A DNA stretch of 43,745 nt. Origin: Chryseobacterium gleum (lineage in GTDB: Bacteria; Bacteroidota; Bacteroidia; UBA10329). The notes beneath the pieces are model-generated. The model did no database searches and was not told where the DNA came from. It saw nothing but the letters and a program-made list of their open reading frames with translations. The stretch covers positions 1-43,745 of the forward strand of contig CAMDOM010000024.1 in assembly GCA_945903645.1 (NCBI GenBank). Reading direction: 5' to 3'. Positions 4,953-32,828 of this stretch are shown in pieces (positions within the stretch are counted from its first letter, which is position 1; each line of letters opens with the position of its first letter). Position numbers and translations under genes: made by a program.

Positions 4953-7058
4953 CTAAAATCTCATTCCAAGATGTTTGAAAACGAAGGACCAGATGTCAGT
5001 GTTTTCTTCAATTTGCTTGCTTAGAGGTTTTCCGGCTCCATGTCCAGCTTTTTTGTCAATGCGAATCAATACAGGGTTTTTTCCTGTTTGATGGGCCTGC
5101 AATGCCGCAATAAATTTGAACGAATGTGCCGGAACAACCCTATCATCATGGTCGGCCGTGGTGACCAAAGTGGCAGGATACTCTGTTTTTTTAACGTTGT
5201 GTAAAGGTGAATATGCATACAGCGCTTTGAATTCTTCGGCATTGTCGCTGCTTCCGTAATCACCCGTCCACGCCCATCCAATAGTGAATTTGTGAAAGCG
5301 TAGCATATCCAAAACTCCAACAGCTGGAAGTGCAACTTTGAATAAATCCGGGCGCTGCGTCATGCAAGCTCCCACAAGCAAGCCACCGTTGGATCGGCCC
5401 GAAATTGCCAATTTTTCTGATGACGTATATTTCTTGGAAATGAGGAATTCTGCTGCAGCAATAAAATCGTCAAACACATTTTGCTTTTGAAGTTTGGTGC
5501 CCGATTTGTGCCATTTTTCGCCATACTCACCGCCACCACGCATGTTGGCACTCGCATAAATCCCACCTTTTTCGAGGAATAGAATGTCGCTAGAAGAGAA
5601 GTTTGCTGTGTTGCTAATGTTGAATCCACCATAGCCATAAAGTAAGCACGGGTTTTTTCCATCCATACTGATTCCTTTACGGTGAATCACAAACATGGGA
5701 ATCTTTGTTCCGTCTTTGCTTGGATAGAAAACTTGATTCACCTCAAAATCGTCAGGATTGAATTTTAGGTCAGGTTTCTTGAAAAGATTGGATTCACCGT
5801 TGGAAATGTTGTAGCTGAATATGGTGTTTGGGTAGGTAAAGGAACTGAACCCAAAAAATGCCAAACTATCATTTCTACTGCCGCTAAAATTGGCTTCTCC
5901 TTTTGTTGGCAAGGCAATGGTGCGGATGAACGTTCCATCCAACGCATGCACATCCAGTTTCGATGCCACGTCTACTAAGTAAGAGGCTACGAACTTACCT
6001 CCAGCAACTACAGCTCCTTCTAAAACGTGTTCTTTTTCAGGAATAATCGTTTTCCATTTTTCTGGCGAAGGATTTTTGGTGTCTATTTCCACAAGTCGAT
6101 AATTTGGAGCGCCATTGTTGGTTTTGCAAAGCAATTTCCCATTGGCATGGTCTATTACTGCATAGTCATGATCGAATCCTTGTACAACAGGAATAAATTC
6201 TTTCATGCCATCTTTTTTGAAATACATGGCTTGACCACTTGTAGATTCCGATTCGTAAACCACTACTGCATCTTCATTATCGGTCACTTGGGCATAATAG
6301 TTTCGCAATGGCTTGGTCGCGTTCCAATAGATTAGCTGGTCTTTGTCTTGTGAAGTACCCAACCCGTGGTAATACACCTTATGAAACTCATTTTTGCCCG
6401 AAAACGCGGCTCCTTTTGTTGGCGCATCATAGCGACTGTAGAAAAACCCATTGCCTTTCCATTCTAAACCTGAAAACTTAACCCATTCCAGTACTTCGTT
6501 GAGTTTAGTGCCAGTGGCAATGTCCAGAATTTCGATTGTATTCCAATCAGATCCTGACGATGAAAGTTGATAAGCGAGGTATTTTCCATCGTGAGATGCA
6601 GAGATGCTTCCTAACGAAACTGTACCGTCTTTAGACAACAAATTTGGGTCTATCAATAGTTTTGATTCCCCATTTAAACCATCTTGCGTGTAAAGTACTG
6701 ATTGATCTTGAGTGCCATTATTTCTGAAATAGAAATAGCGCCCACCGCGTACAATTGGAGTGCTAAAACGCTCATAGTTTGCAAGTTCAGTTAGCCGTGT
6801 TTTTATACTATCGCGGCTTGGAAGTGCGTTTAGATAGTTGAATATAATGGAATTCTGCGTATCTACCCAAGCCTTTGTTTCTGCACTGTTGTCATCCTCC
6901 AACCAACGATAGGGGTCGGCTACTTTGATTCCAAAATAGTCGTCTACAATAGAAGTGTCCTTTCGTGTAATAGGGTAATTCAAAGTGGTGATATTTTCAG
7001 GTTGTTCGCTGCATCCTATTGCAACTAGGGAAATGAAAAACCAAGGTTTAATCTTCAT
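4953..7058 (-). CDS. Prolyl oligopeptidase family (S9A) serine peptidase, lipoprotein
   Basis: S9A enzymes cut short peptides after proline. The N-terminus is a lipoprotein signal: a positively charged start, a hydrophobic core and LVAIGC, whose cysteine would be lipidated, so the enzyme probably works in the periplasm or on the outer membrane. After a region starting DPYRWLEDDNSAETKAWV comes the beta-propeller (about 70-400). The alpha/beta hydrolase domain then holds SGRSNGGLL with S556 as nucleophile, TTADHDDRVVP with the aspartate, and KAGHGAGK with the histidine. The length of about 700 residues fits the family. An ATG seven codons further upstream is in frame, but the chosen start puts the lipobox at the usual distance. 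The gene converges with the M28 peptidase; both could serve peptide nutrition. Confidence 0.93.
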   Translation of the reverse strand: MKIKPWFFISLVAIGCSEQPENITTLNYPITRKDTSIVDDYFGIKVADPYRWLEDDNSAETKAWVDTQNSIIFNYLNALPSRDSIKTRLTELANYERFSTPIVRGGRYFYFRNNGTQDQSVLYTQDGLNGESKLLIDPNLLSKDGTVSLGSISASHDGKYLAYQLSSSGSDWNTIEILDIATGTKLNEVLEWVKFSGLEWKGNGFFYSRYDAPTKGAAFSGKNEFHKVYYHGLGTSQDKDQLIYWNATKPLRNYYAQVTDNEDAVVVYESESTSGQAMYFKKDGMKEFIPVVQGFDHDYAVIDHANGKLLCKTNNGAPNYRLVEIDTKNPSPEKWKTIIPEKEHVLEGAVVAGGKFVASYLVDVASKLDVHALDGTFIRTIALPTKGEANFSGSRNDSLAFFGFSSFTYPNTIFSYNISNGESNLFKKPDLKFNPDDFEVNQVFYPSKDGTKIPMFVIHRKGISMDGKNPCLLYGYGGFNISNTANFSSSDILFLEKGGIYASANMRGGGEYGEKWHKSGTKLQKQNVFDDFIAAAEFLISKKYTSSEKLAISGRSNGGLLVGACMTQRPDLFKVALPAVGVLDMLRFHKFTIGWAWTGDYGSSDNAEEFKALYAYSPLHNVKKTEYPATLVTTADHDDRVVPAHSFKFIAALQAHQTGKNPVLIRIDKKAGHGAGKPLSKQIEENTDIWSFVFKHLGMRF

Positions 7059-7108
7059 TTTAAGGTTGTGAGTTAACACGCTTATTCGCTGGATTTAGGC
7101 AATTTTGG

Positions 7109-7501
7109 CTATTTCACTTCTCGCTCTCGAAGACTGTTAATCCATTCCATCGCTTCCAAATCGGTAGCAAATACACGAATAGGGTGATGACGTCTTCTTG
7201 TACGTGTGTAAAAATTAGCAATTATGCGATGCCCTAAAGAATTGACTACTAACGCTTCAGCTTTCTTTAACTGTTCCAAATCGTTATCCATATATTCACG
7301 GGCTTCCTTTGTATAGGTAGCAGTTGTATCACTGATAAAGAGCAGGTAATAAGTAGCTCCTCTTATTAAATCTTTAACTGCTTTGGTATCTTCTTTAATG
7401 CTTTCTAATGTCATTTCTACACAAGGCTTAGAAACCGATCGAAGTAAATCGGGTTCTTCAAAAGAAAGTATAGAACAACTTGTTTCCGCGAAAGTGCTCA
7501 T
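7109..7501 (-). CDS. Conserved hypothetical protein, STAS/SEC14-like (DUF7793 type)
   Basis: The 130-residue protein has no signal peptide or membrane segment, so it should be cytoplasmic. The central part alternates strands and helices, for example GATYYLLFISDTTATYTKEA and LKKAEALVVNSLGHRIIANF, and the end has HHPIRVFATDLEAMEWINSL. This pattern is seen in a Bacteroidota family of small proteins assigned a STAS or SEC14-like fold (DUF7793). The function is not known; STAS folds often work in protein-protein regulation. It has its own upstream -7 box at 7527-7534 and runs in the same direction as the oligopeptidase gene downstream, only 50 bases away, so co-transcription is possible. The family name is from memory and should be treated as likely, not certain. 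Confidence 0.6.
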   Translation of the reverse strand: MSTFAETSCSILSFEEPDLLRSVSKPCVEMTLESIKEDTKAVKDLIRGATYYLLFISDTTATYTKEAREYMDNDLEQLKKAEALVVNSLGHRIIANFYTRTRRRHHPIRVFATDLEAMEWINSLREREVK

Positions 7502-7526
7502 TTGGTGGTTGAGATACTAAGTAGGT

Positions 7527-7534
7527 CAAATTTA
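7527..7534 (-). promoter_or_regulatory. -7 promoter box TAAATTTG
   Basis: Read on the minus strand this is a perfect match to TAnnTTTG, about 25 bases before the start codon of the gene at 7501. No clear -33 TTG is visible. Confidence 0.4.
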
Positions 7535-7653
7535 ATCATTTGTCGATAAAAAGCTCAGACTAGTCTCGAATATTTCACTTTTTATCTAACGAGAGACTTT
7601 AAGTGGATGAAACGGAAATGCTGTCACGCTTTACTTTCTAATTGGAAGAAGAA

Positions 7654-7670
7654 ACTGACAAGTGGTCAGT
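7654..7670. promoter_or_regulatory. Perfect inverted repeat upstream of htpG
   Basis: ACTGAC and GTCAGT flank the 5-base centre AAGTG. It sits about 60 bases before the htpG start, close to where an operator for a heat-shock gene would lie. It does not match the CIRCE element, so the regulator is unknown. Confidence 0.35.
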
Positions 7671-7728
7671 TGCATAGCAATGGCACGTAGCTTGACAAGC
7701 GGGTTGGGAAATAAATACGTAAGCTATT

Positions 7729-9645
7729 ATGGCAAAAAAATCAACTACTGCCCAAACGGGTACCATCAATGTTTCTACGGAAAATATCTTTCCGATTATC
7801 AAGAAATTCCTTTACAGCGATCACGAAATTTTCTTGCGCGAACTCGTTGCCAACGCTACCGATGCGACTCAGAAAATGAAAACGTTGAGTGGTCTTGGTG
7901 AAACTACAGACGAATTAGGCGACCTAACCATTGAGATTGTATTAGACGAGAAAGCAGGCACCTTAACCATTAAAGATCGTGGGGTTGGTATGACAGCCGA
8001 AGAGGTGAATAAATATATTAACGACATTGCGTTTTCTGGTGCTGAGGAGTTTGTAAATAAGTACAAAGACAAGGCAGAAGCAATTATTGGGCATTTTGGA
8101 CTTGGATTTTATTCCTCGTTTATGGTTTCAAAGCAAGTGGAAATCATCACTAAAAGCCATGTGGCCGGCACAGAAGCTGCGCATTGGACTTGCGATGGTA
8201 GCCCAAATTATACCCTCGATGCACACAAACGCACGGAGCGCGGTACTGATATTATCCTTCATATTGCTGATGATAGCACCGAGTTTTTAGACAAAAATCG
8301 CATTCAATCCATATTGGATAAATACTGTAAGTTTTTGCCTGTTTCCATCAAATTTGGCACAAAAACACATACCGATTACGCCAAACGTGATGACAAAGGC
8401 GAGAAGATTGGTGAGGACGTTGAGATTACCGAAGACAATATCGTAAACAACCCAACTCCAGCTTGGACAAAGAACCCAGCTGACTTGACCACCGAGGAAT
8501 ACAACGAGTTTTATAGGGAGCTCTATCCTATGAACTATGAAGAGCCATTGTTTCACATACACCTAAACGTAGACTATCCGTTCAATCTTACTGGAATCCT
8601 CTATTTCCCTAAAATAAAGGACAACATTTCTGTTCAGAAAGATAAGATTCAACTCTACAGCAATCAGGTGTTTGTTACGGATTCTGTGGAAGGAATTGTT
8701 CCCGAATTCCTAACCCTCTTGCATGGTGTGCTCGATTCGCCCGATATTCCGCTGAACGTGAGCCGCAGTTATTTGCAAAGCGACAGCAATGTGAAGAAAA
8801 TTAGCAGTCACATCAGCAAAAAGGTAACCGATAAATTGGCCGATCTTTTTAAAGAAGACCGCGCAGATTTCGAAAAGAAATGGGATGACATCAAGATTTT
8901 CATTCAATACGGAATGCTTTCGGATGAGAAGTTTCAGGAGCGTGCTACCAAATTTTGGTTGTTCAAAAGTACCAATGGCACCTACAACACCATAGAGGAA
9001 TACAAGGACAAGATTGCTGCGGTGCAAACCGATAAAGATGGCAAATTGGTGCATTTATATACCACCAATGCCGAAACGCAGCATACCTATGTTGAGAATG
9101 CTACCTCGCATGGATATGATGTTTTACTTATGGAAAGTCCATTTGATGCCCACTTTGTAAATCAGCTGGAGCAGAAATTGGAGAATACCACATTCGCACG
9201 AGTGGATGCCGATACCATCGACAAATTAATCAAGAAGGATGAAGAGGCACCAAGTAAACTTTCGGATGCAGAGAAGGAAAAGCTTAAGCCCGTATTTGAG
9301 GCCGAGGTGAACCCTGAAGGTGGAAGAGGCAAGTTTAGCGTGACGTTCGAAAACCTGAGCGAGAAAGATATGCCTGTAGTAATTACGCAGCCAGAGTTTA
9401 TGCGCAGAATGAATGACATGCAAAAGCTTAGCGGACAAGGAATGATGGGCATGGGTGGGTTCGAATTCTTCAACCTTGTGGTTAATGCAAATCATCCAAA
9501 AGTGAGCGAGTTGCTTGCCGAAACCGATGCCGAAAAGCAAAAGAACCGTACTAAACAACTTACGGACATTGCCCTTTTGGGTCAAGGGATGTTGAAAGGA
9601 AAAGCGCTTACCGATTTCCTAAAGCGCAGCGTAGAGTTGGTGTAA
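7729..9645 (+). CDS. htpG: Molecular chaperone HtpG (Hsp90)
   Basis: HtpG is the bacterial Hsp90, an ATP-driven cytoplasmic dimer that helps client proteins fold. The N-terminal ATPase domain (about residues 1-230) shows HEIFLRELVANATDATQK with the ATP-site Glu and Asn, DRGVGMTAEEV, FSGAEEF and IGHFGLGFYSSFMVS. The middle domain follows with YPMNYEEPLFHIHLNVDYPF and LPLN-type sequence IPLNVSRSYLQ, which includes the conserved arginine loop. The C-terminal dimerisation region contains QEFMRRM-like sequence PEFMRRMNDMQKL. The length of 638 residues is normal. The long upstream space has an inverted repeat at 7654-7670, and a terminator follows the gene, so it appears to be transcribed alone, probably with heat-shock control. 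Confidence 0.97.
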   Translation: MAKKSTTAQTGTINVSTENIFPIIKKFLYSDHEIFLRELVANATDATQKMKTLSGLGETTDELGDLTIEIVLDEKAGTLTIKDRGVGMTAEEVNKYINDIAFSGAEEFVNKYKDKAEAIIGHFGLGFYSSFMVSKQVEIITKSHVAGTEAAHWTCDGSPNYTLDAHKRTERGTDIILHIADDSTEFLDKNRIQSILDKYCKFLPVSIKFGTKTHTDYAKRDDKGEKIGEDVEITEDNIVNNPTPAWTKNPADLTTEEYNEFYRELYPMNYEEPLFHIHLNVDYPFNLTGILYFPKIKDNISVQKDKIQLYSNQVFVTDSVEGIVPEFLTLLHGVLDSPDIPLNVSRSYLQSDSNVKKISSHISKKVTDKLADLFKEDRADFEKKWDDIKIFIQYGMLSDEKFQERATKFWLFKSTNGTYNTIEEYKDKIAAVQTDKDGKLVHLYTTNAETQHTYVENATSHGYDVLLMESPFDAHFVNQLEQKLENTTFARVDADTIDKLIKKDEEAPSKLSDAEKEKLKPVFEAEVNPEGGRGKFSVTFENLSEKDMPVVITQPEFMRRMNDMQKLSGQGMMGMGGFEFFNLVVNANHPKVSELLAETDAEKQKNRTKQLTDIALLGQGMLKGKALTDFLKRSVELV

Positions 9646-21310: not shown

Positions 21311-21652
21311 ATGGTATCGCACAATCGATTTTCCACATTTAAAGAATTTTATCCGTTTTACCTGACGCAACATGCTGATGCCATATGCAGAACATTGCAT
21401 TTTGTGGGCACAACGCTTGTAATCGTATGCTTTATCTTAGGTCTTATTTCGGGTAATTGGATGTTTTTTGCATTGATGCCAATTGCTGGTTATGGATTTG
21501 CATGGCTCGGACATTTTGGGTTCGAAAAGAATAAACCAGCTGCTTTTGGTAATCCGTTTTATAGTCTAGCTTCAGATTTTGTGATGTATTGGCACATCCT
21601 TTCCGGACAATTGCCAGGGAAACTGGAAGCCGCTAAAAAGCAATTTCCGTAG
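21311..21652 (+). CDS. DUF962 family membrane protein (Mpo1-like), copy 1
   Basis: The 113-residue protein starts FSTFKEFYPFYLTQHADAIC, then has RTLHFVGTT and two hydrophobic helices (about 33-52 and 54-68), GHFGFEKNKPAAFGNPFYSL, and SDFVMYWHILSG. The histidines in the first block and in GHFGFEKNKPA are conserved in DUF962; yeast Mpo1 of this family is an iron dioxygenase that shortens 2-hydroxy fatty acids. The small Bacterial type seen here has only the core. It is followed after four bases by a DUF985 cupin gene, so the two are likely co-expressed. A second DUF962 gene lies at 29997. Enzymatic function is inferred from the yeast relative. Confidence 0.85.
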   Translation: MVSHNRFSTFKEFYPFYLTQHADAICRTLHFVGTTLVIVCFILGLISGNWMFFALMPIAGYGFAWLGHFGFEKNKPAAFGNPFYSLASDFVMYWHILSGQLPGKLEAAKKQFP

Positions 21653-27491: not shown

Positions 27492-28724
27492 TTACTGTTT
27501 CACAAAATGGGCAGTAGCGATTGATTCGCCAATTACTTGAAGCACGTATGAACCGTTTGGAAGGCTAACCACATTAAGTTGTTGCACACCAGCATTTATA
27601 GAATGCGAAAGCACCATTCTACCTGTCATGTCATACACTTGAGCCAATCCTTGTGAATCAGCGGTGAAACGTAATTCATTGGTAGTTGGGTTTGGATAAA
27701 CATTCACCATGTTGCGCTCAACAGTCGGATTGTCAACGCCTACGAAATTGCTACCGCAGAAACTTCCGCCATCGCAAACCATATCGGCTGCAAAACGTGT
27801 GGCAAAATCAAGAGCAATCTGATCAAATCCACCACTGAAATAACCAACGTGGTTGGTAACGCCAGGATAAGTGAGTAGACAGTTGTCTAATCCCAAATGC
27901 GCTGCTCGAGCATGCAAATCGCGGCTACCAGATGCAACTAGACCAGTAGGAAAACCGCTAACACTCACTTCTGTTGTGTTGTAAGGTACGGTTGGATCCA
28001 GTTCTTCGTGAATGCTGCAAATTGGAACACTGTTGGCATCAATCCATAACGAATCTCCAATAGCACCACTAAAACTAAGCACGCCTAACGGACGACTTGA
28101 ATAGCCAAGATTGCCTGTATTGCCTTCAATTCCGCCAAGTCCAGCGGAATCATTTGCCATATATGCAGGAAACTCATTGATATCGTCAAGATAAGCAGCA
28201 TGAACAGCGCCAATACCACCAGCAGAAATGCCGCCAATAATTACACGCTCGGCATCAATACCGTAAGGATTTCCTTCTTCAGCCACAGATTTTCTAAGAA
28301 AGCGCACTACGGCTTTAATATCATGCGCAGCACGAACCACAGCCAAGGTTGTAGAAACTTGATTGATGGGAAAGAAGAACCCAACGCGGTAGCTAGGGGC
28401 AATTACTACGTAGCCCATTTTAGCAAATACACGCGAAATATCCGCAACATCTTCTTTCGCTCCGCCAATAAATGACCCACCAAAACACATTACAATTACG
28501 GGGCGATTGGTTTCTGTGTCTCCAGCAGGCTCATAAATGTCAAACTTGAGAATTTGATTTCCCCCAGATACCGCGGTGTTTGCACCGTAGGTAATGTTAG
28601 CAGTTTCCTCAAGATTTGGAAACAAATTGTAGGTGCGATACCTAGTGCCATTGCACTCCGTTTGGGCCTGAGTGCCCATGACGGTAAGCGTTACTAAAGA
28701 AATTAGGGTAAAGATTTTTTTCAT
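27492..28724 (-). CDS. T9SS-secreted alpha/beta hydrolase (esterase-like)
   Basis: The first 20 residues, starting MKKIFTLISLVTLTVMG, are a signal peptide ending near TQAQ. The hydrolase domain (about 40-320) has VMCFGGSFIGGAKED for the oxyanion hole and GGISAGGIGAV with S167 as nucleophile; the catalytic histidine may be in TYPGVTNHVGYF. The last 75 residues begin VYPNPTTNELRFTAD and end YVLQVIGESIATAHFVKQ, the type A sorting domain that sends proteins through the type IX system to the cell surface. The enzyme should therefore act outside the cell on an ester or peptide-like substrate. Cysteines in the middle may form disulfides. It ends at the bidirectional terminator and lies downstream of galK, 46 bases away, in the same direction. 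Confidence 0.9.
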   Translation of the reverse strand: MKKIFTLISLVTLTVMGTQAQTECNGTRYRTYNLFPNLEETANITYGANTAVSGGNQILKFDIYEPAGDTETNRPVIVMCFGGSFIGGAKEDVADISRVFAKMGYVVIAPSYRVGFFFPINQVSTTLAVVRAAHDIKAVVRFLRKSVAEEGNPYGIDAERVIIGGISAGGIGAVHAAYLDDINEFPAYMANDSAGLGGIEGNTGNLGYSSRPLGVLSFSGAIGDSLWIDANSVPICSIHEELDPTVPYNTTEVSVSGFPTGLVASGSRDLHARAAHLGLDNCLLTYPGVTNHVGYFSGGFDQIALDFATRFAADMVCDGGSFCGSNFVGVDNPTVERNMVNVYPNPTTNELRFTADSQGLAQVYDMTGRMVLSHSINAGVQQLNVVSLPNGSYVLQVIGESIATAHFVKQ

Positions 28725-28770
28725 GATTTGAAATGATTAGAGATAAATGAGAAGGGCTAAAGGTATATTA

Positions 28771-29904
28771 TCAAATGGTTAACGCATTAACACCATCTGA
28801 TATTTTGCAGGGATAAAACGTAAGCGGTAAGTTGAATTGATTGGAATAGCTTTTTTTTAGGGATTCTTGCAATGAAAGGATGAATTTTTCTTCAATCAAC
28901 GCGATGCAGCAACCACCAAAACCAGCACCAGTGAGCCGAGCACCCAAACAGCCTTGATGCTGTTGCGTGACCTTTATAATGAAATCCAATTCCGCGCTCG
29001 AAACTTCATAATCGTCTCGAAGAGAAGTGTGTGACGCATTGAGCAGCTTTCCAAACTCGTGCAAATCTCCTCGCTTGAGAGCCGACATAGCTTTCTGCAC
29101 GCGCAGTTGCTCCGAAACTACATGACGTGCTCGTTTTTTAAGTAAATCATTGGTCATTTCGTTCACTTCATCCAAAGTTGCATCTACGAGATGCTTGAAT
29201 TTTCTCTTCGTTTGAAGTTCTGCAAGTGCGGCATCACACTCCAATCTCCGCTCATTGTAAGCAGATGTGGCCAAAGTGCGCGGTGCGTGAGAGTTTATAA
29301 CAAGTAGAGCATATTTACCTAACTCAATTGGAATCATTTCATAATACAATGTGCTACAATGCAGTGATATGGCATGATTTGCTCTTCCCAAAGCCACAGC
29401 AAATTGATCCATTATGCCGCAGTTTACTCCAATAAAGTTGTTCTCAATTCGCTGGCATTCTAAAGCCATTGCCACACGTTCTGGTGCAATTCCACTAAAG
29501 AAATGACTGAACATATAATAGGATAGTACTTCTAGGGCTGCCGAAGACGAAAGTCCAGAGCCATGCGGCAATGTGCTGGTGAAATAAACATCGCAGCCTT
29601 CCAATATCAGCTCCTTTTTTTGAAGCATGTGCAATACTCCAACAACATAATCCGTCCAGTGCAATGTTTTCTCAGGAAGCGCATCAATAGACAGAGATGT
29701 AATTTCTTCCGTGTGTTCGCTACATAGATTGATGAAAAGTGTTCCGTTCTTTCGGATATGCGCAGTTATACCTAATGAAATAGACGCAGGCAGCACTAAT
29801 CCTCCATTATAGTCAATGTGCTCGCCAATCAGATTTACCCGGCCTGGGCAGAAATAGGCAGTATCTGGCAAGTGCCCGTCATACAATTCAGTGAATTTTT
29901 TCAT
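28771..29904 (-). CDS. galK: Galactokinase
   Basis: GalK phosphorylates galactose at C1 with ATP, the first step of the Leloir pathway, in the cytoplasm. The galactokinase signature GRVNLIGEHIDYNGG lies near residues 22-36. GHMP kinase motif 2 is LPHGSGLSSSAALEV, and motif 3 is RLTGAGFGGCCIAL near the end. NCGIMDQFAVALG contains the catalytic aspartate region. The 377-residue length is normal. No galT, galE or galM gene is beside it, so the rest of the pathway is encoded elsewhere. TAAATTTC upstream on the minus strand (about 29923-29930) is one base off a -7 box. The gene reads toward the secreted hydrolase gene and may be co-transcribed with it. Confidence 0.95.
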   Translation of the reverse strand: MKKFTELYDGHLPDTAYFCPGRVNLIGEHIDYNGGLVLPASISLGITAHIRKNGTLFINLCSEHTEEITSLSIDALPEKTLHWTDYVVGVLHMLQKKELILEGCDVYFTSTLPHGSGLSSSAALEVLSYYMFSHFFSGIAPERVAMALECQRIENNFIGVNCGIMDQFAVALGRANHAISLHCSTLYYEMIPIELGKYALLVINSHAPRTLATSAYNERRLECDAALAELQTKRKFKHLVDATLDEVNEMTNDLLKKRARHVVSEQLRVQKAMSALKRGDLHEFGKLLNASHTSLRDDYEVSSAELDFIIKVTQQHQGCLGARLTGAGFGGCCIALIEEKFILSLQESLKKSYSNQFNLPLTFYPCKISDGVNALTI

Positions 29905-29996: not shown

Positions 29997-30464
29997 ATGA
30001 GCAAACTCACATCCTTGATGGCCCGATACAAGGAAAGCCATCAAAATCCTACTAATCAGCGTATTCATTGGGTGTTTGTGCCACTTATTTTTTTAAGTGC
30101 AATAGGACTGCTTTGGGATGTGAAACTAGGAGTTGCACTCGATTTTTTTGGAGGTCAACAACTTAATGTTGCAATGATAACCTCAGTGCTTGTATTTGCT
30201 TATTACTTGTCGCTGTCCTTCTCTATCGCTGTGGGAATGCTCATTACATCAACATTAGGCTTGATTGCTTGCTACTTTTTGGATGGCTTCATTTCCGTTT
30301 GGGCGGTTTCGATCGTAGTATTCATAGTTTCGTGGATATTCCAATTTATCGGACATAAAGTTGAAGGTAAAAAGCCATCATTTCTCAAAGACGTTCAATT
30401 TTTTCTCATTGGCCCAGCTTGGGTAATGAGTGCCTTATACACCAAACTCGGCATACGATTTTAA
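29997..30464 (+). CDS. DUF962 family membrane protein (Mpo1-like), copy 2
   Basis: The 155-residue protein has the full-length DUF962 layout. It starts SLMARYKESHQNPTNQRIHW, with the HxxP..N..IH block, then four hydrophobic helices (about 25-40, 57-78, 82-98 and 100-118). GHKVEGKKPSFLKDVQFFLI and GPAWVM complete the pattern. In yeast, Mpo1 is an iron(II) dioxygenase that converts 2-hydroxy-palmitate to pentadecanoate during phytosphingosine breakdown; both histidine blocks are required and are present here. It is 13 bases upstream of an aldehyde dehydrogenase gene, which in turn overlaps a phosphodiesterase gene. This suggests a lipid-degrading cluster, by inference. Confidence 0.88.
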   Translation: MSKLTSLMARYKESHQNPTNQRIHWVFVPLIFLSAIGLLWDVKLGVALDFFGGQQLNVAMITSVLVFAYYLSLSFSIAVGMLITSTLGLIACYFLDGFISVWAVSIVVFIVSWIFQFIGHKVEGKKPSFLKDVQFFLIGPAWVMSALYTKLGIRF

Positions 30465-30477
30465 AACCCAATTCAAG

Positions 30478-31890
30478 ATGGAAGCAGAAACAATTTACAA
30501 ATCGGAAGTAGCGAAATTCGCTCAAACAGTTCAGAAGCAACGCGACTATTTCAATACGGGAGCCACTAAATCATTGGCTTTTCGCAAAGAACAATTGCTA
30601 AAGCTGAAAAATGGCATTCGTAAGCACGAAAAAGCACTACTTGCTGCATTAAAGGCCGATTTGAACAAGCCAGAACTGGAAGCCTATGCCACCGAAATTG
30701 AGGTAACCGTTTCTGAAATAGACCACATTATTCGCAATTTGGCAGATTGGATGGAGCCTGAGCGTGTTTCTACACCGCTGTTTTTTCAGCCTGGATCTGC
30801 CAAAATTGTTCCTGAGCCCTATGGTGTCGCCCTAATTATTGCTCCATGGAATTATCCTGTGAAAAACCTCATTGGTCCTTTGGTTGGAGCCATGTGTGCT
30901 GGAAATACTGCTGTGTTGAAACCTTCCGAGATTTCGCCCGCATGCAGCAAAGCCATCAGTGTCATGATTACCGACACGTTCGAAGCCCACTATTTGGTGA
31001 GCATTGAAGGTGGAGTAGCTGATACCACCGAATTGCTTAAAGAGCGTTTCGATTATTTGCTTTTCACAGGAGGTACCGAGATTGGCCGTATTGTGTATCA
31101 ATCAGCTGCCAAGCATCTTACGCCAGTTACTTTAGAATTGGGTGGAAAAAGTCCATGTATTGTAGATGAAGACATCAACATGGATGTGGCGGCTAAGCGC
31201 TTGGTTTGGGGCAAGTTTGTGAACACCGGGCAAACCTGTATTGCACCCGATTATATTTTCGTAAACAAGAAAATAAAAGCGAAATTCTTGGAGAAAGTGA
31301 AGCAGCATATCACCGAGTTTTTTGGCAAACCCGAGGATAAGAGCAATGACCTTGGACGTATTATTAGCGATCGTCATTTTCAACGTTTATCCAAAATGCT
31401 AACAGGCGATATTATTGCGGGTGGAGTTACAGATGCTTCGCAACGCTATATCAGTCCAACCGTGATTGATAATGTGACCTTAGATCATCCTGCCATGCAA
31501 GAAGAGATATTCGGTCCCATTATGCCCATCATTGGTTACGATAGTTTTGATGAGGTTATTGCCCATATCAATCGCGGAGAGCGTCCTTTAGCATTGTATC
31601 TTTTTTCCAATAACTCTGATTTGCGCAAACGTTTGGAAAACGAAACATCTTCGGGTGCTATTTGTGTGAACGAAACAATGGTACACGCTGGGCATCCTGG
31701 TTTACCTTTTGGTGGAGTTGGAAATAGCGGAATTGGTGGCTACAACGGTAAGTTTGGCTTTGATACCTTTTCGCACAAAAAGCCAGTATTAGTGCGCTCT
31801 TACCTTGGCGATGTGAAGCAGAAGTATCCTCCCTACAACGCGTCTAAAGTCAGTTTCATTAAATTCGCGGCCAAGTGGTTCTTGCGCTAA
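30478..31890 (+). CDS. Aldehyde dehydrogenase, class 3 (fatty aldehyde) type
   Basis: The enzyme oxidises aldehydes to acids with NAD(P). The 470-residue length, shorter than class 1/2 enzymes, and the sequence EPYGVALIIAPWNYPVKNLI followed by GAMCAGNTAVLKPSE place it with the ALDH3-like group. E220 in LELGGKSP and C254 in GQTCIAP are the catalytic residues. PFGGVGNSGIGGYNGKFGFD near the end is the typical ALDH3 motif. The C-terminus SFIKFAAKWFLR is basic and hydrophobic and might touch the membrane, as in fatty aldehyde dehydrogenases. ATG 30478 is chosen because the longer frame overlaps the DUF962 gene. The stop TAA and the next ATG overlap as TAATG, indicating coupled translation with the phosphodiesterase. 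Confidence 0.93.
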   Translation: MEAETIYKSEVAKFAQTVQKQRDYFNTGATKSLAFRKEQLLKLKNGIRKHEKALLAALKADLNKPELEAYATEIEVTVSEIDHIIRNLADWMEPERVSTPLFFQPGSAKIVPEPYGVALIIAPWNYPVKNLIGPLVGAMCAGNTAVLKPSEISPACSKAISVMITDTFEAHYLVSIEGGVADTTELLKERFDYLLFTGGTEIGRIVYQSAAKHLTPVTLELGGKSPCIVDEDINMDVAAKRLVWGKFVNTGQTCIAPDYIFVNKKIKAKFLEKVKQHITEFFGKPEDKSNDLGRIISDRHFQRLSKMLTGDIIAGGVTDASQRYISPTVIDNVTLDHPAMQEEIFGPIMPIIGYDSFDEVIAHINRGERPLALYLFSNNSDLRKRLENETSSGAICVNETMVHAGHPGLPFGGVGNSGIGGYNGKFGFDTFSHKKPVLVRSYLGDVKQKYPPYNASKVSFIKFAAKWFLR

Positions 31891-32828
31891 TGCGTTACAT
31901 AGCCGCTCTGCTGACGGTCATTTTATTTCAAGGCCCATTTGTGCACGCGCAAATGGGCCTTCCCATTGCCGACCATGTTATTGTGATTGGAGTTGATGGT
32001 ATGAGCCCTGCGGGAATAGAAGGAGCGCACACACCCGTTATCGTCAGTTTGCTGAAATATTCGGCCTACACATTTGTTTGTGAAGCAGTATTGCCCACCA
32101 GCAGCAGCCCCAATTGGGCTAGCATAGTTATGGGCGCACCGCCTTCGCTACATGGCGTAACGTCCAATAGCTGGCAGCCTGGCCTTCAAACTGAACCATT
32201 GGTTTGCACAGGTACCGATGGAAAAGGAAAGAGCAGCAACGCGTGGCCTACCATTTTTGGCGAATTGCGCAAACAAAAACCCACGGCAGATATTGCCTGC
32301 TTTTTCGATTGGAGAGACTTTGGCCGATTGATAGAAAAAGGCGTGCTAACCAAAGAACGCAGATCTAATTTGATGGAAAAAGCCTTTGGCACAGGTCATC
32401 AATCCATGAGAAGGGGCGCAGCGCGCTATTTTAAGAAGAACACGCCCGATTTAATGTTCTTGCATTTGGATAACGTAGATCATGCAGGACATGAATATGG
32501 CCACGGCACTGCGCAATACTTTGATGCTGTAGCCGAAGCAGATAGGCAAATTGGTAAACTGATAGAGGCGGTAAAAGCCTCAGGCAAAGCTGACCGCACA
32601 GTAATTCTAATTACCGCAGACCACGGAGGCATAGGCACAGGCCATGGAGGGGATAGTCCAGCAGAACGCTTTGTGCCTTGGATATTGAATGGGCGAAAAG
32701 TGGTGCATGGTAAGTTGTCAACTGCGGTTCAAACCTTTGACACAGCTGCCACATTGAGCTATATCTTGGGCATTCGAGTACCTTCGTGCTGGACAGGTCA
32801 AATTGTGTTGCAGGCTTTGCCGCAGTAA
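31890..32828 (+). CDS. Secreted NPP-type phosphodiesterase (alkaline phosphatase superfamily)
   Basis: The first 20 or so residues are a signal peptide (MRYIAALLTVILFQGPFV), ending near HAQ. The catalytic domain binds two zinc ions: VIGVDGMSPAG gives the first aspartate, PTSSSPNWASIVMG holds the nucleophile, LHLDNVDHAGHEYGHG and TADHGGIGTGHGG hold the remaining Asp/His ligands. In nucleotide pyrophosphatase/phosphodiesterases the nucleophile is usually threonine (K-T-x-P-N); here the aligned residue is serine (S-S-S-P-N). It has no T9SS domain, so it is probably periplasmic. The ATG overlaps the aldehyde dehydrogenase stop. Relatives include nucleotide, glycerophosphodiester and sphingomyelin hydrolases, and the substrate is open. 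Confidence 0.88.
   Translation: MRYIAALLTVILFQGPFVHAQMGLPIADHVIVIGVDGMSPAGIEGAHTPVIVSLLKYSAYTFVCEAVLPTSSSPNWASIVMGAPPSLHGVTSNSWQPGLQTEPLVCTGTDGKGKSSNAWPTIFGELRKQKPTADIACFFDWRDFGRLIEKGVLTKERRSNLMEKAFGTGHQSMRRGAARYFKKNTPDLMFLHLDNVDHAGHEYGHGTAQYFDAVAEADRQIGKLIEAVKASGKADRTVILITADHGGIGTGHGGDSPAERFVPWILNGRKVVHGKLSTAVQTFDTAATLSYILGIRVPSCWTGQIVLQALPQ

Follow-up and report, generated by a model that had tools for sequence, protein, structure and literature searches.

Three consecutive genes on the forward strand of a 43,745-nucleotide contig of Chryseobacterium gleum (the window, meaning the whole stretch analysed) raise the question of whether they act together in degrading 2-hydroxylated lipids. We find that they probably constitute one module of a catabolic pathway of the sphingolipid type that is dispersed and has the eukaryotic layout. 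This reading rests on gene identities, conserved catalytic positions, linkages and co-occurrence, from which we infer the substrates and the order of reactions.

Three genes encoding an Mpo1-like protein, an aldehyde dehydrogenase and a phosphodiesterase

The open reading frames agree in coordinates, strand and family (PF06127, PF00171 and PF01663) with a sequence-only reading that had taken them for a candidate 2-hydroxy-lipid degrading operon. Gene 1 (29997..30464) encodes a long-form Mpo1-like (DUF962) integral membrane protein of 155 amino acids, gene 2 (30478..31890) an ALDH3-type aldehyde dehydrogenase of 470 amino acids, and gene 3 (31890..32828) a secreted NPP-type phosphodiesterase of 312 amino acids. 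Genes 1 and 2 are separated by 13 bases, with the stop at 30464 and the ATG at 30478, and the TAATG overlap between genes 2 and 3 is real because the TAA of gene 2 occupies positions 31888-31890 and the ATG of gene 3 begins at 31890. Scans for promoters and terminators near the operon yielded nothing beyond chance expectation, and a search for plasmid copies of the operon returned none. A short Mpo1-like gene elsewhere in the window (21311-21652) was weighed as a possible further member and dropped, as no link was found.

In a profile search, gene 1 matched PF06127 with 75.4 bits (curated cut-off 24; E 4e-21), and residues H15, H24, H120 and E123 were invariant across 45 homologues. Its AlphaFold model is all-helical with a pLDDT of 94; neither sequence nor fold comparison identified PDB relatives of the Mpo1-like protein, and comparison with viral models likewise gave no relative. 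We propose that this protein shortens 2-hydroxy fatty acids by one carbon.

Gene 2 matched PF00171 with 294 bits, and its best PDB relatives, class-3 aldehyde dehydrogenases (1ad3, E 7e-138) and human fatty aldehyde dehydrogenase (FALDH; 4qgk), place it in class 3. The catalytic Cys254 and Glu220 are near-invariant in linked homologues, which also carry a conserved helix-like C-terminal tail behind a YPPY/YAPY motif. In gene 2 this tail aligns up to residue 454 of FALDH, an alignment that is only suggestive of a preference for long-chain aldehydes; the proposed substrates are fatty or 2-hydroxy fatty aldehydes. Assignment as the benzaldehyde dehydrogenase MdlD was rejected, the score of 442 bits lying below the NCBIfam equivalog cut-off of 550.

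Gene 3 has a hydrophobic, signal-peptide-like N-terminus and matched PF01663 with 106 bits (E 4e-30). Alignment with XaNPP located the NPP metal ligands, the nucleophile position (S72) and the Asn, and residues D36, S72, N93, D197, H201, D244, H245 and H252 show at least 95% conservation across 24 homologues. The protein is a candidate remover of head groups outside the cell, for example from sphingomyelin-like or other phosphosphingolipids. Partial matches to PafA-type alkaline phosphatase and phosphonoacetate hydrolase fell far below the cut-offs. An ENPP7-type assignment by sequence was likewise rejected, since ENPP7 (E 6e-6) ranked behind Xanthomonas NPP (5e-12) and ENPP1, a ranking that does not exclude activity on sphingomyelin.

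A conserved gene pair that tracks sphingolipid-type enzymes

We surveyed 247 Bacteroidia genomes, in which the long Mpo1 type occurred in 29 families (families are coded f, genomes G). By coordinates, an Mpo1-ALDH3 pair was present in 23 genomes from 7 of these 29 families, far beyond chance; a pair was counted when ALDH3 directly followed the Mpo1-like gene or, in f13, followed it with one or a few genes between them. Lineages as distant as f28 and two Flavobacteriales MAGs (L069 and L072) keep the two genes at lower identity, with different flanking genes. The NPP gene adjoins the pair in 8 of the 9 genomes of the window's genus and in one other family. Adjacency of all three genes, which the sequence-only reading had named as a test of its proposal, is thus rare, with a single family outside the genus; the conserved core is therefore Mpo1-ALDH3, and the phosphodiesterase is the changeable part.

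What takes the place of NPP elsewhere points to lipids. Between Mpo1 and ALDH3, f13 carries a secreted sphingomyelinase (SMase) homologue unrelated to NPP (TIGR03395 E 1e-33; PDB E 7e-20), and in f23 the order is SMase-DUF1571-Mpo1, the SMase homologue standing just upstream of Mpo1. The window's own genome holds three SMase homologues, one of them paired with DUF1571. The homologues of f13, f23 and the own genome scored 117, 97 and 90 bits, short of the TIGR03395 equivalog cut-off of 248, and the catalytic positions N54, E90, H175, D214, N216, D301 and H302 were at least 90% conserved in 26 sequences. The DUF1571 model matched LolA/LprG/RseB (E 4e-7).

Co-occurrence was compared in 83 Mpo1-type genomes, 23 with the pair and 60 without it. 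A ceramidase was found in 23/23 pair genomes against 16/60 others (p 2e-10), a sphingosine-1-phosphate (S1P) lyase in 22/23 against 7/60 (p 5e-13), and an SMase in 22/23 against 11/60 (p 5e-11). After collapse to families, the sole correction for phylogeny, p ranged from 5e-4 to 1e-3. The ALDH3 orthologue taken alone was accompanied by ceramidase in 37 of 38 genomes. Long Mpo1-like proteins as such are widespread in Bacteroidota with other neighbours, and about half of 85 genomes carry one without any other pathway gene, so the family is not confined to a sphingolipid pathway.

In the window's own genome the pathway parts lie mostly on separate contigs. The neutral-ceramidase homologue (PF04734, 376 bits; E 2e-76 against the Pseudomonas aeruginosa enzyme) did not reach the curated equivalog cut-off. 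Its His, His, Glu and Tyr align with the zinc ligands of 2zws, and the position usually taken as the nucleophile Ser is Thr in this genus and Ser, Thr or Met in relatives. It lacks a signal peptide and seems cytoplasmic. The ceramidase gene is followed by a D-threonine-aldolase-like gene; such an alanine-racemase-N/aldolase-type PLP protein (SphD-like) adjoins the ceramidase homologue here and in f20, f23 and f46. An S1P-lyase homologue (human 4q6r, E 2e-91) had ten S1P-lyase sequences at the top of its PDB list (E 2e-92 to 8e-56) and retains the PLP lysine, K247; about 110 C-terminal residues are missing in this assembly, and the protein is intact in another genome of the genus (G007).

Among most relatives in the genus a kinase adjoins the lyase, and this FGGY-family protein is a candidate sphingoid-base kinase. 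A ceramidase-PHP-kinase-lyase cluster occurs in G073 and G224, the G073 contig also bearing SMase-DUF1571-Mpo1. Ceramidase lies divergently to Mpo1-ALDH3 in G074 and to ALDH3 in G031, and SMase is linked to ceramidase in G156 and, by coordinates, in G185. Altogether, co-occurrence and linkage lend strong, though indirect, support to the lipid part of the operon proposal, while NPP does not hold as a fixed component.

A proposed route and its competitors

Eukaryotic membranes and detritus are rich in sphingolipids and their 2-hydroxy chains, and to our knowledge bacterial sphingolipid degradation past the ceramidase step is barely described. In the proposed route, the secreted NPP-type phosphodiesterase, or elsewhere the secreted SMase homologue, would strip the phospho-head group outside the cytoplasm. 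The ceramide-like core would then move inward, perhaps with help from DUF1571, the LolA/LprG-fold protein paired with SMase, and the neutral-ceramidase homologue would release the sphingoid base and an often 2-hydroxylated fatty acid in the cytoplasm. Cleavage of the base between C2 and C3 would yield a fatty aldehyde, 2-hydroxylated if it came from a phytosphingosine-type base. This step could be carried out by the S1P-lyase homologue after phosphorylation, with the adjacent FGGY-family protein as candidate kinase, or by the D-threonine-aldolase-like enzyme encoded beside ceramidase; in the window's genome it probably falls to the aldolase-like enzyme or to the lyase, which lacks its C-terminus in this assembly. 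ALDH3 would turn the aldehyde into an acid, like yeast Hfd1, and the Mpo1-like protein would use Fe-dependent alpha-oxidation to take C1 off the 2-hydroxy acid, opening the chain to beta-oxidation.

The main competing explanation is that the same enzymes recycle sulfonolipids made by the cell itself and not sphingolipids from outside. Given the likeness of capnine (2-amino-3-hydroxyalkane-1-sulfonate) to sphinganine-1-phosphate, an S1P-lyase-like enzyme could cut capnine without a kinase: the ceramidase homologue would first remove the N-acyl chain, the lyase would release taurine along with a fatty aldehyde, and the aldehyde and the hydroxy acid would pass to ALDH3 and Mpo1. It ranks as the main rival because the window's genome encodes a homologue of capnine synthase (CapB; cysteate-C-fatty acyltransferase 28eh, E 7e-180) and a search of its aminotransferase-family proteins turned up no serine palmitoyltransferase; the three acyltransferase-type candidates there proved to be a glycine C-acetyltransferase, a BioF-like protein and the capnine-synthase homologue itself. 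The apparently cytoplasmic ceramidase homologue fits as well, as does a search of this genome that found no FGGY kinase. Against it, we know of no lyase activity on capnine, a kinase does stand beside the lyase in most congeneric relatives, and, as sulfonolipids lack a phospho-head group, secreted NPP and SMase homologues would serve no purpose on them. In Bacteroidota, making sulfonolipids and making sphingolipids seem to exclude each other (PMC10191378), which again favours sulfonolipids; on balance we consider this explanation unlikely.

Mpo1 and ALDH3 might instead serve as a general clean-up pair, disposing of fatty aldehydes and 2-hydroxy fatty acids whatever the membrane lipid they come from, with the phosphodiesterase, a glycerophosphodiester or nucleotide enzyme, co-transcribed by chance. 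The varied neighbours of long Mpo1-like proteins across Bacteroidota agree with this, as does the adjacency of NPP in two families only, and the sequences do not reveal the substrate. However, the pair tracks ceramidase, S1P lyase and SMase very closely, the ALDH3 orthologue does so more broadly still, and homologues of SMase and ceramidase lie immediately beside the pair or beside ALDH3, which makes a general clean-up rather improbable. That the linkage merely reflects gene order inherited inside one clade, with no shared function, is very improbable: most linked families score near each other and may be related at the order level, but several rearrangements keep the same functions together, NPP is replaced by a non-homologous SMase, and f28, L069 and L072 keep the pair amid different flanks.

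A sphingolipid-type module thus remains the preferred reading. The three genes look like its outer and final steps, and the own genome and relatives hold candidates for most of the missing ones, so that a pathway hardly described in bacteria becomes testable. Together the gene sets supply a named candidate at each step, among them a bacterial Mpo1 and a sphingoid-base kinase that may belong to a new class. For DUF1571 and the long DUF962 proteins they provide functions that can be tested, and they suggest an environmental route from phytosphingosine and 2-hydroxy ceramides to odd-chain fatty acids. More tentatively, and with some doubt, Bacteroidota may possess a complete, partly operon-assembled sphingolipid-to-fatty-acid pathway with Mpo1-type alpha-oxidation and a new FGGY-family sphingoid-base kinase next to S1P lyase; if so, this kinase would share no ancestry with the diacylglycerol-kinase-type sphingosine kinases known so far.

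Comparison with known systems

The suggestion that such a pathway would be new to bacteria holds only in part, as sphBCD and a sphingosine-induced ceramidase are already known from P. aeruginosa; its sphingosine response comprises PlcH, CerN, SphA and SphBCD (PMC5150637, PMC11893366), and the product of its sphingosine metabolism is still unidentified (PMC11893366). Both systems combine neutral ceramidase with SMase, an activity there and homologues here, and the PLP protein beside ceramidase is likened to SphD by described family only. In contrast to P. aeruginosa, the ceramidase homologue here seems cytoplasmic, the SMase belongs to the beta-toxin/B. cereus family and not to that of PlcH, and S1P-lyase, ALDH3 and Mpo1 homologues are present.

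Gene 3 shares with ENPP7 and ENPP6 (alkaline sphingomyelinase and choline phosphodiesterase) the NPP-fold metal site and the diesterase-type Asn; it is shorter, has Ser rather than Thr at the nucleophile position and lies closest in sequence to Xanthomonas NPP, not to ENPP7. The catalytic part of the lyase is clearly homologous to the solved bacterial S1P lyases (Symbiobacterium 3mad, Legionella 4w8i and Burkholderia 5k1r) and keeps their PLP lysine, whereas here the own copy is truncated, and in many Bacteroidia families the lyases go together with homologues of ceramidase, kinase, ALDH3 and Mpo1.

The closest parallel is phytosphingosine degradation in yeast, which runs through Dpl1, Hfd1 and Mpo1 (Kitamura, Seki and Kihara 2017; Seki et al. 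2019; Mori et al. 2020; as cited in PMC10864336 and PMC9624242). Here, too, genomes combine homologues of these three proteins (lyase, fatty aldehyde dehydrogenase and Mpo1), and the Mpo1 and ALDH3 genes are adjacent. Unlike the yeast pathway, the putative one here is bacterial and partly operonic, includes a candidate FGGY-type kinase and has a secreted head-group hydrolase in the operon.

The three genes and the extent of their conservation

All three ORFs lie on the forward strand exactly where the sequence-only reading had placed them: gene 1 (29997-30464, +) encodes a long-form Mpo1-like (DUF962) protein of 155 aa matching PF06127, gene 2 (30478-31890, +) an aldehyde dehydrogenase of 470 aa, and gene 3 (31890-32828, +) an NPP-type phosphodiesterase (312 aa, PF01663 match), with the 13-base gap between genes 1 and 2 and the TAATG overlap of genes 2 and 3 also as described there. 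By its sequence, gene 2 is assigned to ALDH class 3 (ALDH3), the nearest solved structures in a PDB comparison being class-3 ALDHs and human fatty aldehyde dehydrogenase (4qgk). Benzaldehyde dehydrogenase was rejected, its score falling below that family's cut-off. The gene 3 product has a signal-peptide-like N terminus. Across 24 homologues, all NPP metal ligands and the diesterase Asn are conserved, with Ser occupying the nucleophile position. In gene 1, His15, His24, His120, and Glu123 are invariant (45 homologues); AlphaFold predicts its product with high confidence (pLDDT 94) as all-helical, and a fold comparison with solved structures found none related to it. The window also encodes, at 21311-21652 (+) and thus ~8 kb upstream of gene 1, a shorter Mpo1-like protein (113 aa; E 2e-37 to PF06127) that lacks the central transmembrane insertion and for which no connection with lipid genes was seen.

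The Mpo1-like and ALDH3 genes are adjacent in 9/9 genomes of the window's genus, with NPP after the pair in 8/9; in the genome G003, the operon is divided between two contigs. Across most of the genus, a divergent galactokinase and a secreted esterase, an alpha/beta-hydrolase with a type IX secretion sorting domain, are kept upstream (27492-29904, -). Of the Bacteroidia genomes surveyed (247), 85 have the long Mpo1-like protein, 121 an ALDH3 (counted at E <= 1e-90), and 22 the NPP subfamily of gene 3. ALDH3 follows the Mpo1-like gene directly, or one or a few genes on, in 23 genomes from seven families (f1, f4, f13, f28, f42, f46, f55), beyond which two further genomes have these genes at contig ends; the complete set, which the sequence-only reading proposed as a candidate operon, occurs only in the genus and in G053, a genome from a different family. 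Outside the genus, NPP occurs in four families that all have the pair (f4, f13, f42, f46), as a rule at another place in the genome; only two distant matches, from f57 and f32, depart from this. Because the pair recurs across families and the triplet is confined, Mpo1-ALDH3 is the conserved core, and the phosphodiesterase is an interchangeable, local addition. The pair also appears at two of the 80 named GTDB loci examined for the Mpo1-like protein, both from Flavobacteriales MAGs (L069, L072); in L072 (8948-10818) it is followed by a membrane protein and, by eye, a fatty-acid-desaturase-like protein.

Sphingomyelinase homologues beside Mpo1-like genes

In f13, the product of a gene between the Mpo1-like and ALDH3 genes is secreted and belongs to the DNase-I-like superfamily. 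Bacterial sphingomyelinases are its nearest relatives of solved structure (PDB E 7e-20), and it matches TIGR03395 at E 1e-33, yet under the curated cut-off; genome G063 has extra genes between this sphingomyelinase (SMase) homologue and ALDH3. In f23, the SMase homologue lies upstream of the Mpo1-like gene, with a DUF1571 gene in between. Its catalytic residues are conserved (26 sequences). A head-group phosphodiesterase of one superfamily therefore replaces that of another, and this exchange, as read from sequence, points to the substrate.

The DUF1571 protein is secreted, and its pairing with SMase recurs in f4 and in the window's own genome, which has three SMase homologues. Its model (pLDDT 72, moderate confidence) matches LolA, LprG, and RseB, whose fold is that of carriers of lipids or lipoproteins. 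At loci L081, L099, L112, L135, and L142, a DUF1571-LysM protein directly follows the Mpo1-like gene, which in all of these except L081 is preceded by paired secreted proteins of ~270-320 aa sharing a C-terminal sorting-like tail.

Co-occurrence and linkage of ceramidase, lyase, and kinase genes

Among 83 scorable genomes with a long Mpo1-like protein, a ceramidase homologue was present in 23/23 with the pair versus 16/60 others (p 2e-10), a sphingosine-1-phosphate (S1P) lyase homologue in 22/23 versus 7/60 (p 5e-13), and SMase in 22/23 versus 11/60 (p 5e-11); the sole pair genome without the lyase is 70% complete. Collapsed to families, which handles kinship but is no substitute for a tree-aware test, the counts were 7/7 versus 5 or 6/22 (p 5e-4 to 1e-3). 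The ALDH3 orthologue by itself was accompanied by ceramidase in 37/38 genomes.

Physical linkage was also found. Ceramidase is divergent from Mpo1-ALDH3 in G074 and from ALDH3 in G031, and SMase adjoins it in G156 and, by coordinates, G185. In G073 and G224, ceramidase, a PHP-family phosphatase-like gene, an FGGY kinase, and the S1P lyase form a row, which in G073 lies ~12 kb from SMase-DUF1571-Mpo1 on the same contig.

The FGGY-family kinase (~528 aa) adjoins the lyase in f1, f4, f28, and f23 (L181, L206, L180, L189, L177, L183, L207). It scores under every NCBIfam equivalog cut-off, its nearest solved relatives being sugar and glycerol kinases (E ~1e-26 or weaker). As the head of a sphingoid base is a glycerol-like 2-amino-1,3-diol, this protein is a natural candidate for a sphingoid-base kinase.

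Rival readings, the proposed pathway, and the own genome

One protein of the own genome (L220, G000:C2:71517-72557) is closely homologous to capnine synthase, a cysteate-C-fatty acyltransferase (28eh in the PDB, E 7e-180), and serine palmitoyltransferase was looked for among the genome's aminotransferase-family proteins and not found, so the organism probably makes sulfonolipids. Since capnine resembles sphinganine-1-phosphate, turnover of the cell's own sulfonolipids is a real rival, which the capnine synthase homologue favors and against which the secreted phosphodiesterases and the kinase speak. In Bacteroidota, sulfonolipids seem to exclude sphingolipids (PMC10191378). The long Mpo1-like family must have other work too, because such proteins are common without any of the pathway partners. 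Many Cytophagales-type loci (L077, L078, L088, L091, L102, L108, L117; around 6450-9300) have a different conserved setting, with the Mpo1-like gene between a conserved ~170-aa gene (hotdog-like by eye) and two genes of ~310 and ~285 aa, by eye acetyltransferase-like and glycosyltransferase-like.

Degradation of a substrate that is likely sphingolipid-like, begun outside the cell and completed inside, is most likely how the system works; its substrates and step order we infer from the observed gene identities and links. NPP or sphingomyelinase would take off the phospho-head group outside; inside, the ceramidase homologue would act first, followed by kinase and lyase or an aldolase-like enzyme, then ALDH3, and last Mpo1-like alpha-oxidation of 2-hydroxy acids. 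Sources of these acids may be bases of the phytosphingosine type or 2-hydroxy N-acyl chains, the latter present in bacterial and eukaryotic sphingolipids (PMC10002949). The original proposal of 2-hydroxy-lipid degradation is thus strengthened well beyond three genes, with its core shifted to Mpo1-ALDH3 and its phosphodiesterase interchangeable. The individual parts are of known kinds; new is their bacterial assembly with Mpo1 and the candidate FGGY kinase, and the system is worth bench testing.

The single PF00282 protein of the own genome is its S1P-lyase homologue (L169, G000:C9:31710-32980), with ten S1P-lyase sequences at the top of its PDB list. From residue 384, which lies in a short repeat (CACTCGTCA...), its homology to relatives is lost; this assembly lacks ~110 C-terminal residues, through either decay or assembly error, and the gene end abuts an opposite gene. 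The homologue of the closely related G007 is full-length. Searches for the FGGY kinase found none in the own genome, G007, or G002, so these genomes may take a different route. The own neutral-ceramidase homologue (PF04734, not found in any of 14 control genomes) matches the Pseudomonas aeruginosa enzyme at E 2e-76, with aligned Zn-ligand positions, Thr where Ser is usual, and no signal peptide. Twenty bases behind its gene lies that of a PF01168 protein related, among solved structures, to D-threonine-aldolase-type enzymes; this gene pair also occurs in f46, f20, and f23. By described type, the PF01168 protein resembles SphD of the sphingosine-induced sphBCD operon of P. aeruginosa, likewise described as of the D-threonine-aldolase type (PMC5150637; PMC11893366).
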